64,000 bases of DNA, from assembly GCF_022818495.1 (NCBI RefSeq), contig NZ_CP089291.1, forward strand, positions 1,045,536 to 1,109,535. Direction: 5' to 3'. A program made the position numbers and the translations under genes. The notes below the pieces were generated by a model that was given only the letters and a program-made list of their open reading frames with translations, ran no database searches and was not told the origin of the DNA. Shown piece after piece: positions 2,882-6,712 of the stretch (position 1 is its first letter; each line of letters starts with the position of its first letter). Origin of the DNA: Fodinisporobacter ferrooxydans. Lineage in GTDB: Bacteria > Bacillota > Bacilli > Tumebacillales > MYW30-H2.

Positions 2882-3208
2882 ATATTCACCCTCCTGCTAT
2901 CCCAATACAGCCCCAGAATCATATGTATGCGTAGCGCCGCCAAAACATGTCCCACACGGGAGACCCGGCATATACGCGTGACTTTCCATTTTAACGGCAT
3001 ATTTCCAGCTGCTTAAGCCGCGTGTCATTGTTGGCATGGCAATGATACGATCACAAAAATAGTCGATGATACATATACTGCTCCCAAGACTTCAGAATTC
3101 TTTCAATTTTTGGGGACAAAGAGGATTGAATCCTTGCAAAAAATGAGTTAACATAAATGTACTTAACGAATTTACTCTCAATCCATCTAAAAAAGGAGGA
3201 TGCCCGAT
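2882..3208. other. Intergenic region upstream of mntP
   Basis: About 330 bases between the divergent mntP and the small plus-strand gene at 3209. No convincing open frame. It should carry the mntP promoter (minus) and the promoter of the small gene (plus), but I could not place either with confidence. Confidence 0.4.
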
Positions 3209-3340
3209 ATGGATTTGAACAAACCTATTGATCTTGAACAGTATCATGAAGAATTATCGATTATGCGCCATTTGGAGAAAATGGATCCGAGCAACAATCC
3301 TAAACAATCGACACAGGAGAAAGAAGAAGAATCCAAATAA
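3209..3340 (+). CDS. Small acidic/charged protein, 43 residues
   Basis: Not recognised. The ATG at 3209 is preceded by a near-perfect AAAAGGAGG 9 bases upstream, which is why I call it. The product begins MDLNKPIDLEQYHEELSIM and ends in a charged low-complexity tail (QEKEEESK). It has no membrane segment or signal peptide and is probably helical in the middle. It is the only plus-strand gene between mntP and ywlC and is followed by a strong hairpin at 3454. It could be a small sporulation or stress protein; nothing in the sequence decides that. Confidence 0.6.
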   Translation: MDLNKPIDLEQYHEELSIMRHLEKMDPSNNPKQSTQEKEEESK

Positions 3341-3453
3341 GCTGGCAATGCCATATTCGGGTTATGAATTTGGTCTATCGGCAGAGTTTGTCAATGCTAA
3401 GGAGGCTATGTGTACGTGACTGTACACTCAATCTCAAATCTTGATTTCATACG

Positions 3454-3496
3454 ATAACAGCCCGTCTCTCAGTAAGAGCGGGCTGTTATTGTTTAT
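3454..3496 (+). terminator. Strong hairpin, probable terminator between convergent genes
   Basis: ATAACAGCCCG pairs with CGGGCTGTTAT; the stem continues partly into the loop (TCTCT/AGAG). On the plus strand it is followed by a T-rich stretch. It lies between the small plus-strand gene and the end of ywlC and may serve both. Confidence 0.7.
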
Positions 3497-3521
3497 TGTT
3501 TATTGTTATAACCGATTATCG

Positions 3522-4604
3522 TTATACCCGAATGATGGAATGGCCGGCTGCCTTTCTCATTCGATTCATGACTGCTGCACCAAATCCTTGCACAGGCACA
3601 CCTTCTGCCAAAATTTTCGCCACGTTTTTTTCGTCAAACTCTCGCAACCACTGATACAAGTGCTGGCCGGTTTCCTGGATATCTGCATTACCTTGTGGTC
3701 GTATGATCCATTCCACACCCATTTGATCGAGCTGCTCACAAAACGCCTCATCGCCTGTTTGATTTGTGGTTAACAATACTCCCACTCGTTGGTTCGGCTG
3801 CTCAAGAAGCATTTGTTGGCACAGTTCCCGTATCGATGTTCGAATCCGCTTAGGATCTCCTTCTAAAACTGTCATATCGCCTTGCGGTGCATAATGGGTA
3901 TATTTCATGCCCGGACTTTTCGGCGCATGATGCTCTTCCAGCAAACCTGCATCCATGGAAACGTCACCAATCACCTGTTGCAACATTTCTTGTGTAATTT
4001 CCCCCGGACGCAAGATGATCGGCGGGGAAACTGTACAATCCAAAACGGTCGATTCCAGACCGACTGCCGTTTCACCGCCATCGAGGATGAGTGGGATCCG
4101 ATCTTTTAAATCTTCCCATACATGCTGTGCACATGTGGGACTGGGACGGCCCGATCGATTGGCGCTGGGAGCTGCGATCGGCAAGCCTGTCTGGCGGATC
4201 AATCGCATTGCCACCGGATGATTGGGCATGCGGATTCCCACTGATGGCAGATTTGCCGTTACGTACTTCGATAGCGTTGGTCCTTTCGGCAGAATCAGCG
4301 TCAATGGCCCTGGCCAAAATTTCTCCATACATATTCTTGCAACGTCCGGAATTTCCGAGACAATCGCATCTAATTGCTGAAAATCTGCAATATGAACAAT
4401 CAGAGGATTATCCGCAGGACGTCCTTTCGCCTCGAAAATTTTCCGAACTGCTTCGTCATTTGTCGCATCTGCCCCTAATCCATAGACAGTCTCGGTTGGA
4501 AATGCCACAACTTCGCCTGCCTGCAGCAACTTTACAGCAGTCTCATAGCCGCTGTCGTCTTTTCTTGCATCCATTACAACTGTAGTTTCCCGGCTTTTAT
4601 TCAT
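3522..4604 (-). CDS. ywlC: L-threonylcarbamoyladenylate synthase (Sua5/YwlC)
   Basis: Makes threonylcarbamoyl-AMP from threonine, bicarbonate and ATP for the t6A37 modification of ANN-decoding tRNAs. Two parts: the TsaC/YrdC domain (roughly residues 15-205, with GEVVAFPTETVYGLGADA, KGRPADNPLIVHI and the SANRSG loop), then the linker and the Sua5 C-terminal Rossmann-like domain (SPGMKYTHYAP to the end). This makes it the long Sua5 type, not short TsaC. The frame opens at a GTG (4613), but the ATG at 4604 is better spaced from GGAGAG. Its upstream region carries the DnaA-box cluster described separately. Confidence 0.95.
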   Translation of the reverse strand: MNKSRETTVVMDARKDDSGYETAVKLLQAGEVVAFPTETVYGLGADATNDEAVRKIFEAKGRPADNPLIVHIADFQQLDAIVSEIPDVARICMEKFWPGPLTLILPKGPTLSKYVTANLPSVGIRMPNHPVAMRLIRQTGLPIAAPSANRSGRPSPTCAQHVWEDLKDRIPLILDGGETAVGLESTVLDCTVSPPIILRPGEITQEMLQQVIGDVSMDAGLLEEHHAPKSPGMKYTHYAPQGDMTVLEGDPKRIRTSIRELCQQMLLEQPNQRVGVLLTTNQTGDEAFCEQLDQMGVEWIIRPQGNADIQETGQHLYQWLREFDEKNVAKILAEGVPVQGFGAAVMNRMRKAAGHSIIRV

Positions 4605-4626
4605 GTGAATCACATACTCTCCATTT

Positions 4627-4828
4627 TTATCAACAACTTATCCACATCATGTGAATTTCTTTTTTCGAATTCCAAATTTAAGAATACTCTTATAATCCCT
4701 TCTATATCAAGTATTTTTAAAATGAAATACGCTTAGATCATGCAAACGTTCGTTCCGTTATTCACATTATCAACACCCAATTGTGGATATGTTGGTAAGT
4801 TCCCGTGTATAAGAGTCGGTTATCCACA
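4627..4828. promoter_or_regulatory. DnaA-box cluster between ywlC and spoIIR
   Basis: Exact matches to TTATNCACA are at 4638-4646 (TTATCCACA), 4758-4766 (TTATTCACA) and 4820-4828 (TTATCCACA), all on the plus strand. One-mismatch copies TTATCAACA are at 4627-4635 and 4767-4775. A reverse-strand near match (ATATCCACA) is at 4782-4790, and TTATCCGCA lies at 4874 inside the spoIIR 3' end. Three perfect and three near boxes in about 200 non-coding bases is far above chance. The region also contains the ywlC promoter, so DnaA could both be titrated here and control ywlC. Confidence 0.75.
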
Positions 4829-4851
4829 AACCGAATGGTTTTTGTATTCCA

Positions 4852-5628
4852 TCAAGCATTTGTCTTGTGGCTTTTATCCGCAGAACTGTGGAAAAGTTCT
4901 TGAAACAAGTGCTCGATCGCAAATATAAGCTTTTTTCCATAATCGAGAATGGCAAATCGAACTTGAACCGTTTCTCCTTGACTCGTGGCTGTTTTTCCAA
5001 CTTGAATGGTCGCCGCCGGCTTATGATCGGGGAAATCCTTCGTATTCGGGACTGCATCCCCATTGGCCAAATCCACAAAGCACAAGGGCGGAAACAATAC
5101 ACACCACCAATTTTGACCTTTTCCCTGACCGATGATGATGCGCAACGCTTCATAATCACCGGCAGGATAGACTTGATTGCCATATAATTTGGTCGGAAAT
5201 GCTACAACACCTACTTCCGTCTGAGTCGGATACGTATACCCTTCTTGACGGATGACGCTTTGTGCAATCTGATCCAAACGGGGAACCGCCCGTTTCAAAA
5301 TCGTTTCCGCTTGCTCTTTTGTTGTGGCTCCGTGCAATAATTGCCCGACAGCAGCGATGATTTTATCCCGTACATCCCGTTTTAACTGCTGATCTGATGA
5401 ACTGTCGCTATTTGCAATGATGCGCAAGCGCACCGCATTCTGAGGTATGGTCCCCTTCAGTAGAGCCACTTCATCCTCCAGGTCTGCAGTTGCTTGTGGT
5501 GAAATATTGGCTTTTGGAGTGACTTGTACAGTGGAATTTGCCAATGCCATGGAGCTGAAAGAATTATCGGTCAGGAATAATGCCAGGCTGATGAGTGCAA
5601 TTTTTTTTATGTAAGGAATAGTGCTCAT
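4852..5628 (-). CDS. spoIIR: Stage II sporulation protein R
   Basis: Signalling protein made in the forespore under sigma-F and exported to the intermembrane space, where it triggers SpoIIGA to process pro-sigma-E in the mother cell. About 258 residues: an N-terminal hydrophobic signal segment (IALISLALFLTDNSFSSMALA) and then the SpoIIR domain with LRIIANSDSSSDQQLKRDVRDKI and GQGKGQNWWCVLFPPLCFVD, the family hallmark. I chose the ATG at 5628 because GGAGG lies 8 bases upstream; the ATG at 5643 overlaps that ribosome binding site. Placement between prmC and ywlC follows B. subtilis. Confidence 0.94.
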   Translation of the reverse strand: MSTIPYIKKIALISLALFLTDNSFSSMALANSTVQVTPKANISPQATADLEDEVALLKGTIPQNAVRLRIIANSDSSSDQQLKRDVRDKIIAAVGQLLHGATTKEQAETILKRAVPRLDQIAQSVIRQEGYTYPTQTEVGVVAFPTKLYGNQVYPAGDYEALRIIIGQGKGQNWWCVLFPPLCFVDLANGDAVPNTKDFPDHKPAATIQVGKTATSQGETVQVRFAILDYGKKLIFAIEHLFQELFHSSADKSHKTNA

Positions 5629-5745
5629 ATCCGTTGCCTCCATTTTCTATCAATCTCGTATGTAGCAACTAGTATGAGCAGAATTACTAGAGTTTAAACA
5701 TGTGCATAAAAAACTATTGACTTTTAATTTTACACGCACTAATAG

Positions 5746-5772
5746 TAAAAAAGGCTCAACGGCATGTTGAGC
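5746..5772 (-). terminator. Terminator overlapping the prmC stop codon
   Basis: On the minus strand GCTCAAC/GTTGAGC with a 5-base loop runs into TTTTTTT. The prmC stop codon lies inside the hairpin. It separates prfA-prmC from spoIIR. Confidence 0.8.
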
Positions 5773-6712
5773 TTTTTCTGATTCCCACAACGATTCGATT
5801 GATTCCGGCAAGGTCCTGATGGATCTCTGTACGCATGCAGAGCGGGTCTTGCCGAAGCATATCTGCAACACGTTCGGCTTGTCCCGCCCCCACTTCAAAC
5901 AAAACGGCAGATGGAAGATCTTTTGCAGATCCGAACCACTCACATTGTCCGATTATATGGCGGTACGGATCCATCCCATCCATTCCGCCCTTTAATGCCA
6001 AATGCGGCTCAAAGTTCCGCACTTCCGTTTGCAGTGTCTGTATATCCATATCGGGTATATAGGGGGGATTTGATACGATCATATCGACAGCCATGCCTTT
6101 TTCTATCATCGGCTGCAAGCCGTCACCCTGGTGAAATGTGATCTGTGCGCCAAGTCGCTGTGCATTTGCTGTCGCGACGTGCAGAGCGGATGCAGAAATA
6201 TCAATCCCATGTATCTCAAATGGGATATTTTTACGCGACATACGAGCAGTCAACTCCAATGCCATGGTAATGGCAATGGCGCCACTGCCGACACCGATAT
6301 CAACCACGCGAAGAGGGCGACCGCCGTGTTCCGGAATCTCCTGAAACAGTTGCAGGGCGCGTTCCACCAGACATTCCGTCTCAGGTCTCGGTATGAGTAC
6401 GGCTGTGTTCACTTGAAATGTCCGCCCGTAAAACTCCGCTTCTCCCAAAATATATTGCAAAGGCTCCCGCTGCCCTCTTCGTTTCACCCAATCGATAAAC
6501 ACCGCCTGTACCGGACCTGGCAAAGGCTCATTCCATTTTGTCAGCCAATCCAGACTGCTCCACTTGAGCAAATGCCGCAACATCCATTCTGCATTGCGTT
6601 CCGGATATATGACACCTTTTGCATCTAAAAAACGGGATGCCCATGTGTGAGCCTCCCGTACCGTATACGATGCATCCGGTGATAGAGGGAAATCTGCGTC
6701 CACTCCTGTCAC
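5756..6712 (-). CDS. prmC: Release factor glutamine N5-methyltransferase
   Basis: Methylates the glutamine of the GGQ motif of release factors using S-adenosylmethionine. 318 residues: the N-terminal helical release-factor-binding domain, PLQYILGEAEFYGR near residue 84, the SAM-binding DIGVGSGAIAI (138-148) and the catalytic NPPY (215-218). It starts 11 bases after the prfA stop, so the enzyme and its substrate RF1 share an operon. The extreme N-terminus (MTGVDADFPLSPDAS) is longer than usual and poorly conserved. Transcription ends at the hairpin overlapping its stop codon. Confidence 0.95.
   Translation of the reverse strand: MTGVDADFPLSPDASYTVREAHTWASRFLDAKGVIYPERNAEWMLRHLLKWSSLDWLTKWNEPLPGPVQAVFIDWVKRRGQREPLQYILGEAEFYGRTFQVNTAVLIPRPETECLVERALQLFQEIPEHGGRPLRVVDIGVGSGAIAITMALELTARMSRKNIPFEIHGIDISASALHVATANAQRLGAQITFHQGDGLQPMIEKGMAVDMIVSNPPYIPDMDIQTLQTEVRNFEPHLALKGGMDGMDPYRHIIGQCEWFGSAKDLPSAVLFEVGAGQAERVADMLRQDPLCMRTEIHQDLAGINRIVVGIRKSSTCR

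Follow-up and report, generated by a model that had tools for sequence, protein, structure and literature searches.

Clusters of DnaA boxes located outside oriC are already known as a kind of element, from Bacillus subtilis. According to the accessible portion of the original description, DnaA binding region 6 of this bacterium lies "upstream of ywlC; downstream of ywlB", at 3,772 kb of the 4.2-Mb chromosome, and contains nine sites; its apparent Kd for ATP-DnaA is 0.25 uM and ywlC appears to be repressed by DnaA (PMC4447404). A ywlC-lacZ fusion (-240 to +73) was less expressed in a B. subtilis antisense-RNA mutant containing about twofold more DnaA and DnaN, a decrease credited to DnaA in the part of that report available to us (PMC12112137). 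Deletion of six extra-oriC clusters led to early initiation (PMC5295017, PMC13220808), which was partly relieved when one cluster was put back at various places; in the accessible text, no single cluster is given a significant role (PMC5295017). An approximately tenfold increase in DnaA caused no over-initiation in B. subtilis, as stated in the available part of a 2026 review, which also describes this species as lacking datA and DARS loci and IHF (PMC13220808). In E. coli, too, initiation is modulated by regions that bind DnaA outside oriC, namely datA, DARS1 and DARS2 (PMC5010248, PMC4585315). From what is accessible of the second of these papers, datA and DARS work by altering the nucleotide state of DnaA, which sets them apart from the clusters considered here (PMC4585315).

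The locus under study was found in a window, that is, the whole stretch of 64 kb of DNA analysed here, which belongs to a genome assembled as a single contig of 4.857 Mb. Scanning the window for TTATNCACA, with one mismatch allowed, revealed ten matches at 4604-4895, three perfect and seven with one mismatch. The cluster lies between spoIIR and ywlC, with a slight reach into both genes. The features of the region are:

3522-4613, minus strand: ywlC (sua5), threonylcarbamoyl-AMP synthase for tRNA t6A, Pfam PF01300 and PF03481; the cluster lies upstream of it
4604-4895, no strand: DnaA-box cluster, ten matches to TTATNCACA, three of them perfect
4604-4612, minus strand: one-mismatch box TGATTCACA, over the ywlC start region
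4627-4635, plus strand: one-mismatch box TTATCAACA, next box 11 bp off
4638-4646, plus strand: perfect DnaA box TTATCCACA
4681-4710, minus strand: weak sigma-70-like promoter match TTGATA-18-TATTCT, pointing at ywlC
4758-4766, plus strand: perfect DnaA box TTATTCACA
4767-4775, plus strand: one-mismatch box TTATCAACA, directly adjoining the box at 4758-4766
4782-4790, minus strand: one-mismatch box ATATCCACA
4804-4812, minus strand: one-mismatch box TTATACACG
4820-4828, plus strand: perfect DnaA box TTATCCACA
4852-5643, minus strand: spoIIR, Pfam PF09551, the upstream neighbour of ywlC and not the gene that the cluster tracks
4874-4882, plus strand: one-mismatch box TTATCCGCA, within the spoIIR 3' end
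4887-4895, minus strand: one-mismatch box TTTTCCACA, within the spoIIR 3' end

The initial annotation had placed a DnaA-box cluster between ywlC and spoIIR and counted three perfect and three single-mismatch boxes. The cluster is real and the perfect boxes were counted correctly; the single-mismatch boxes were underestimated, as there are five within 4627-4882 and seven over 4604-4895. The ywlC-ywlB cluster of B. subtilis that it invoked exists as well, as region 6 in the accessible part of PMC4447404. The gene order on the minus strand is prfA, prmC, spoIIR, ywlC, mntP, ywlE, rpiB, ywlG, the first five being identified with Pfam and the last three named by eye from their translations. A single sigma-70-like promoter match was found in 4400-5000, against 1.6 expected, which is no more than chance. 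A known structured RNA was rejected as a candidate, Rfam giving no match in 3000-6500 up to an E value of 0.1.

Compared with region 6, as far as the source describes it, the present cluster is associated with the same gene, ywlC, on the same (5') side; it has a similar number of sites (nine there, ten here) and the same box consensus, and it is likewise origin-proximal. It differs in that spoIIR is directly upstream, with no ywlB between, and in that the sites here are predicted. The B. subtilis cluster was taken from the available portion of PMC4447404, B. subtilis not being by name among the sequences that we compared.

The density of boxes at this place is far above that of shuffled DNA. 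The densest 300 bp of the window hold ten boxes, three of them perfect, whereas 300 dinucleotide-preserving shuffles of the window gave maxima of two to five boxes and zero to two perfect ones. When the 292-bp region itself was shuffled 5000 times, it contained 0.58 boxes on average and at most five, with at most one perfect, so that none of the 5000 shuffles reached ten boxes or three perfect ones. Among 400 letter-permuted motifs, the real one included, the real motif scored ten in the region and all others five or fewer. In other parts of the 64 kb, 11 matches per 300 bp occur for one permuted motif and seven for two others, so that dense runs of one or other permuted motif are not unheard of here. 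Overall, the window shows no enrichment, with 78 matches against 71.8 expected, and the enrichment is therefore that of a local cluster.

The one-mismatch boxes were scored in 439 kb of the genome (the window and 20 further stretches) and the perfect ones genome-wide. It should be noted that eight of the stretches (L049-L056) were selected for boxes seen there or for oriC, while the other twelve, of 20 kb each (L057-L068), were taken by round coordinates. Equal or higher box density elsewhere in the genome would have spoken against the cluster; in the parts read, only the oriC stretch is denser, with 14 boxes per 300 bp. The best 300 bp hold eight boxes in the stretch at 1770 kb, six in L054, five at 540 kb and two to four in each of the other 16 stretches, including all twelve taken by round coordinates. 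The six boxes of L054 (11678-11950, one of them perfect) lie among proteins that look phage-like by eye, with a transposase-like gene adjoining. All 121 occurrences of TTATYCACA in the genome were enumerated (63 TTATCCACA and 58 TTATTCACA), and at least three of them within 300 bp were found only at oriC, the ywlC site, 540 kb and 1770 kb. By hand count, clusters included, 48 of the 63 TTATCCACA are in the chromosome half centred on dnaA.

The conservation of the cluster was examined in other members of the class, of which 207 out of 299 genomes contain SpoIIR. We compared 116 loci, namely 100 class genomes, 15 named loci and the window, the 100 genomes being hand-picked to spread over families and not drawn at random from the 207 with SpoIIR. 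In 108 of the 116, ywlC was found in one stretch with spoIIR; eight loci (L002, L013, L014, L015, L073, L074, L075 and L113) were dropped for having no ywlC match, L074 and L075 being 15-kb stretches with ywlC elsewhere. At least four boxes were found within 700 bp before the ywlC match in 60 of the 108 loci, and also in 60 when the distance was reduced to 350 bp; since some loci repeat species among the numbered genomes (L006 and L137, for instance, have contigs of equal length), the 108 loci are not 108 independent species. The remaining 48 loci have no box (34 loci), one (eight), two (five) or three (one), and the cluster is thus dispensable. With control motifs, the same comparison gave 0-1 of the 108 loci, except for TTTTNCACA, which is one letter from the real motif and gave 49. 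When no motif was assumed, the commonest 8-mers upstream of ywlC were TATCCACA and GTGGATAA.

The boxes are most dense from -300 to +100 of the start of the ywlC match, where the four bins contain 0.24-0.69 perfect boxes per locus and 100 bp, compared to 0-0.07 elsewhere. This peak stays with ywlC both at a distance of 0.19 kb and at one of 4.3 kb to the end of the spoIIR match, and in all gene arrangements the cluster keeps to the 5' end of ywlC. Outside the ywlC region, only three loci (L077, L099 and L136) contain at least five boxes per 300 bp in the 1.58 Mb scanned. In L077, a tandem array of seven boxes exactly 12 bp apart, at -745 to -665 of the ywlC match, is present besides the ywlC cluster. 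Among class genomes that lack SpoIIR, of which 20 were searched, five of 19 loci carry the cluster. A link to spoIIR or to sporulation was therefore rejected, because the cluster follows ywlC, also in genomes without spoIIR. Outside the class, the cluster was found in none of 27 loci, these being the 27 best-matching ones (192 of the 199 genomes of a phylum sample, some of them of the class, gave a match). The proposal of deep conservation across relatives is thus borne out by the comparison. Regarding the idea of a conserved site beside a tRNA-modification and a forespore-signalling gene, the part that concerns ywlC holds, whereas the proximity of spoIIR is incidental.

Alignments of related upstream regions point to selection on the boxes themselves. 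Box columns are more conserved than spacer columns in all of the 88 ordered pairs that 11 groups provided (nine genera and two families, the region of the window being in none of them). As these pairs are not independent, the same box layout was slid along each alignment. The true layout scored above the slid mean in 11 of 11 groups; none of 300 slides reached the true score in seven groups, whereas 5, 11, 24 and 34 of 300 did so in the other four, where the control is weaker. A spacing of 11-12 bp accounts for 33% of the neighbouring-box pairs, compared to 5% with random placement, and 50 of the 60 clusters have at least one neighbouring pair 11-12 bp apart, compared to 23% with random placement. 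Such one-helical-turn spacing would fit cooperative binding on one face of the DNA.

On a phylogenetic tree, the presence of the cluster requires six changes, compared to 32.4 for shuffled labels, and the well-supported branches force at least four. This tree, a quick LG+G4 reconstruction from the three linked genes encoding PrfA, PrmC and YwlC, comprises 102 rows, 60 with and 42 without the cluster; L004 and L008-L011 were left out by choice and L137 for lack of data. Every sampled row is without the cluster in the clades that we take to be Alicyclobacillaceae and Paenibacillaceae; a further clade lacking it is presumably Thermoactinomycetaceae, and the cluster-less clades include the named Alicyclobacillus, Paenibacillus and Shimazuella loci. 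The row of the window is placed beside rows without the cluster, with a support of only 86. Early presence followed by several losses is the simplest account, although the tree by itself does not separate gain from loss. A cluster in the same place relative to ywlC is thus found in wide relatives, and we consider it highly likely from these comparisons that the 4604-4895 cluster is a DnaA-binding cluster orthologous to that of B. subtilis.

The ywlC cluster is not the only one in this genome. Of the six high-affinity regions outside oriC in the B. subtilis list available from PMC4447404, the comparison covered sda, ywlC, gcp-ydiF and jag-trmE (ywcI-vpr and yydA being the other two), and all four have counterparts here. 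Besides ywlC, the clusters are:

1770213-1770614 of the genome (G000; L052 7214-7615): tsaD (gcp) cluster, eight boxes in 300 bp, five of them perfect
near 4366103 of the genome (G000; L259), plus strand: sda cluster, PF08970, six boxes at -210 to -99, three of them perfect
L051 4092-4370: jag-trmE cluster, seven boxes, one of them perfect, beside oriC
540402-540495 of the genome (G000; L049 8403-8496): five boxes, three perfect and two with one mismatch, adjoining a PAS-GGDEF gene

The cluster at 1770 kb comes after thiL-tsaE-tsaB-rimI-tsaD (thiL, tsaE, tsaB and rimI named by eye) and a phosphoribosyltransferase gene and before a LysR-type gene, the convergent ABC-F gene ydiF being farther on. 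Its place is the gcp-ydiF place, that of B. subtilis binding region 4; as in B. subtilis, gcp (tsaD)-ydiF, sda and jag-trmE all carry clusters here, with the difference that in this genome the phosphoribosyltransferase gene separates tsaD from the cluster and the LysR-type gene and others precede ydiF. Of 71 loci (70 of 80 matching genomes and our own, L212 offering only 165 bp after tsaD), 53 have four or more boxes in the 1.5 kb that follow tsaD, and ydiF is convergent with tsaD in all 29 loci of these 71 where it was found. One locus with a Paenibacillaceae code, L257 (G259), was scored as lacking the tsaD cluster and has nine boxes per 300 bp near ydiF, about 2.9 kb after tsaD; the 1.5-kb limit may thus undercount tsaD clusters.

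At sda, at least four boxes are present in 26 of 31 loci (our own and the 30 best-scoring of 53 matching genomes). The group at jag-trmE is a weak one, with a mismatch in six of the seven boxes; they lie below jag (a name given by eye), in and before the trmE start, the open frame of trmE containing the first two, and at least four boxes were found at trmE in only eight of 30 loci of other genomes (the 30 best-scoring of 119 matching genomes). We know of no B. subtilis counterpart of the 540-kb cluster. This cluster is also absent from the B. subtilis region list as available from PMC4447404. Regarding the ywlC and tsaD clusters together, 47 of 68 genomes have both, seven have only that of ywlC, six only that of tsaD and eight neither. 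Joint gain or loss of the two is unsupported among the three (starred branches) to five independent contrasts of the tree, where the mean is 0.5 in the same and 1.3 in the opposite direction.

The position of the ywlC cluster on the chromosome had been described as away from the origin genes. There is indeed no dnaA in the window, and the place is outside the dnaA-dnaN origin region, as expected of an extra-oriC cluster; yet dnaA, at 1.2278 Mb, is only 177 kb from the spoIIR match, or 3.6% of the chromosome, and the site is origin-proximal. In the 21 genomes with a cluster that were measured, our own included, the distance from cluster to dnaA is 3.6-10.4% of the chromosome, with a median of 5.2%. 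The ywlC block of 12 measured genomes without a cluster is 2.0-18.9% from dnaA, with a median of 4.1% (both percentages are those of the contig where an assembly has several). Nearness to oriC is thus a property of the gene block and alone no argument for a role of the cluster.

Taken together, these results make it very probable that the cluster works as a control site and did not arise by chance. Our preferred explanation, which we regard as probable, is that it is an ancestral cluster of the B. subtilis type that binds DnaA cooperatively, represses ywlC and holds DnaA off oriC. The conservation was observed here, and DnaA binding, ywlC repression and restraint of initiation would follow from the B. 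subtilis work. An oriC-proximal cluster would have been inherited from the ancestor of much of the class. DnaA would bind its closely spaced boxes cooperatively and assemble into a stable complex that covers the leader and upstream region of ywlC; when DnaA is abundant, ywlC transcription would be lowered. Together with the tsaD, sda and jag-trmE clusters, the site would keep DnaA from oriC and delay initiation until enough free DnaA is available. A part in replication control is taken over by analogy for the site in this genome, and repression of ywlC may be an equally good or additional function beside it.

The alternatives differ in what the boxes are thought to be for. Clustering by chance or through composition, in an intergenic stretch rich in A+T, could draw on the composition of the region (34% G+C), on how common one-mismatch matches are (78 in the window against 72 expected) and on the permuted motif that gets to 11 elsewhere in the window; it was rejected on the shuffles and permuted motifs, and as 60 of 108 loci have the cluster in this very position, with boxes better conserved than spacers, this reading is scarcely credible. 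That the cluster is a cryptic, relic or second replication origin is also very improbable: the number of boxes nears that of oriC (10 versus 14), but the dnaA and dnaN origin region, with its own clusters, is 177 kb away and the flanking genes are not origin genes. A relic origin was rejected as a candidate since the site is not adjacent to dnaA/dnaN, dnaA being at 1.228 Mb of G000.

The two other readings overlap with our preferred explanation and each emphasises one half of it. The boxes could be kept mainly for local transcription control, DnaA repressing ywlC and thereby coupling t6A synthesis to the replication state, with titration as a by-product; we hold this to be possible, although not likely. 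It agrees with the boxes keeping to the 5' end of ywlC in every arrangement, with their presence in 5 of 19 loci that lack spoIIR and, as far as the published accounts were available, with the lower ywlC expression in the B. subtilis mutant with more DnaA (PMC12112137) and the lack of over-initiation at tenfold DnaA (PMC13220808). In this genome, the LysR-type gene starts just past the tsaD boxes. On the other hand, the tsaD cluster is about as conserved (53 of 71 loci) and comes after the gene end with ydiF convergent in 29 of 29 loci where found, often leaving no promoter, and up to 11 boxes would be more than simple repression needs. That the tsaD clusters are mostly at gene ends suggests that promoter control is not the whole story. 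Conversely, the cluster could serve chiefly as a DnaA depot that lies near ywlC for historical reasons, with ywlC repression as a side effect, a reading that we find decidedly unlikely. The early initiation without six clusters and its partial relief by one returned at various places, as related in the accessible part of PMC5295017, argue for it, as does the position at 3.6-10.4% of the chromosome from dnaA in 21 genomes. Nevertheless, a pure depot would be free to drift near oriC, whereas across the tree the cluster stays attached to the 5' end of ywlC, an indication that the gene matters and that titration is not the whole story either; cluster-less genomes have ywlC about as near to oriC (median 4.1% in 12 measured). 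Part of the published B. subtilis evidence speaks against a strong titration role, tenfold DnaA overproduction having caused no over-initiation in the account available from PMC13220808 and no cluster being credited with a significant role in that of PMC5295017.

With regard to novelty, we found no paper on the conservation of these clusters beyond B. subtilis or on a link to t6A, in a search largely without subscription papers; the depth of conservation is likely new, which is not proven. We further put forward, as a speculation that we would not rate as likely, that a set of DnaA depots has come down to the class from its ancestor and that two persistent members of this set are at both t6A loci, upstream of ywlC/sua5 and at the end of the tsaD operon, forming a lasting physical link between the initiator and the decoding capacity for ANN codons. 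If this is true, a single DnaA pool would be the common reference for the timing of initiation and the capacity for translation, irrespective of sporulation.

The evidence for a role of the clusters in B. subtilis came from removing all six of them, and one review, in its available part, sees no significant role for a single one. Conservation at the same genes over much of the class, with boxes kept above spacers, indicates that selection does care about individual clusters. The natural losses in Paenibacillaceae, Alicyclobacillaceae, Thermoactinomycetaceae and others would be places to look for compensation, and, because clusters occur at both t6A loci, B. subtilis offers a direct test of a connection between the initiation of replication and the modification of tRNA.
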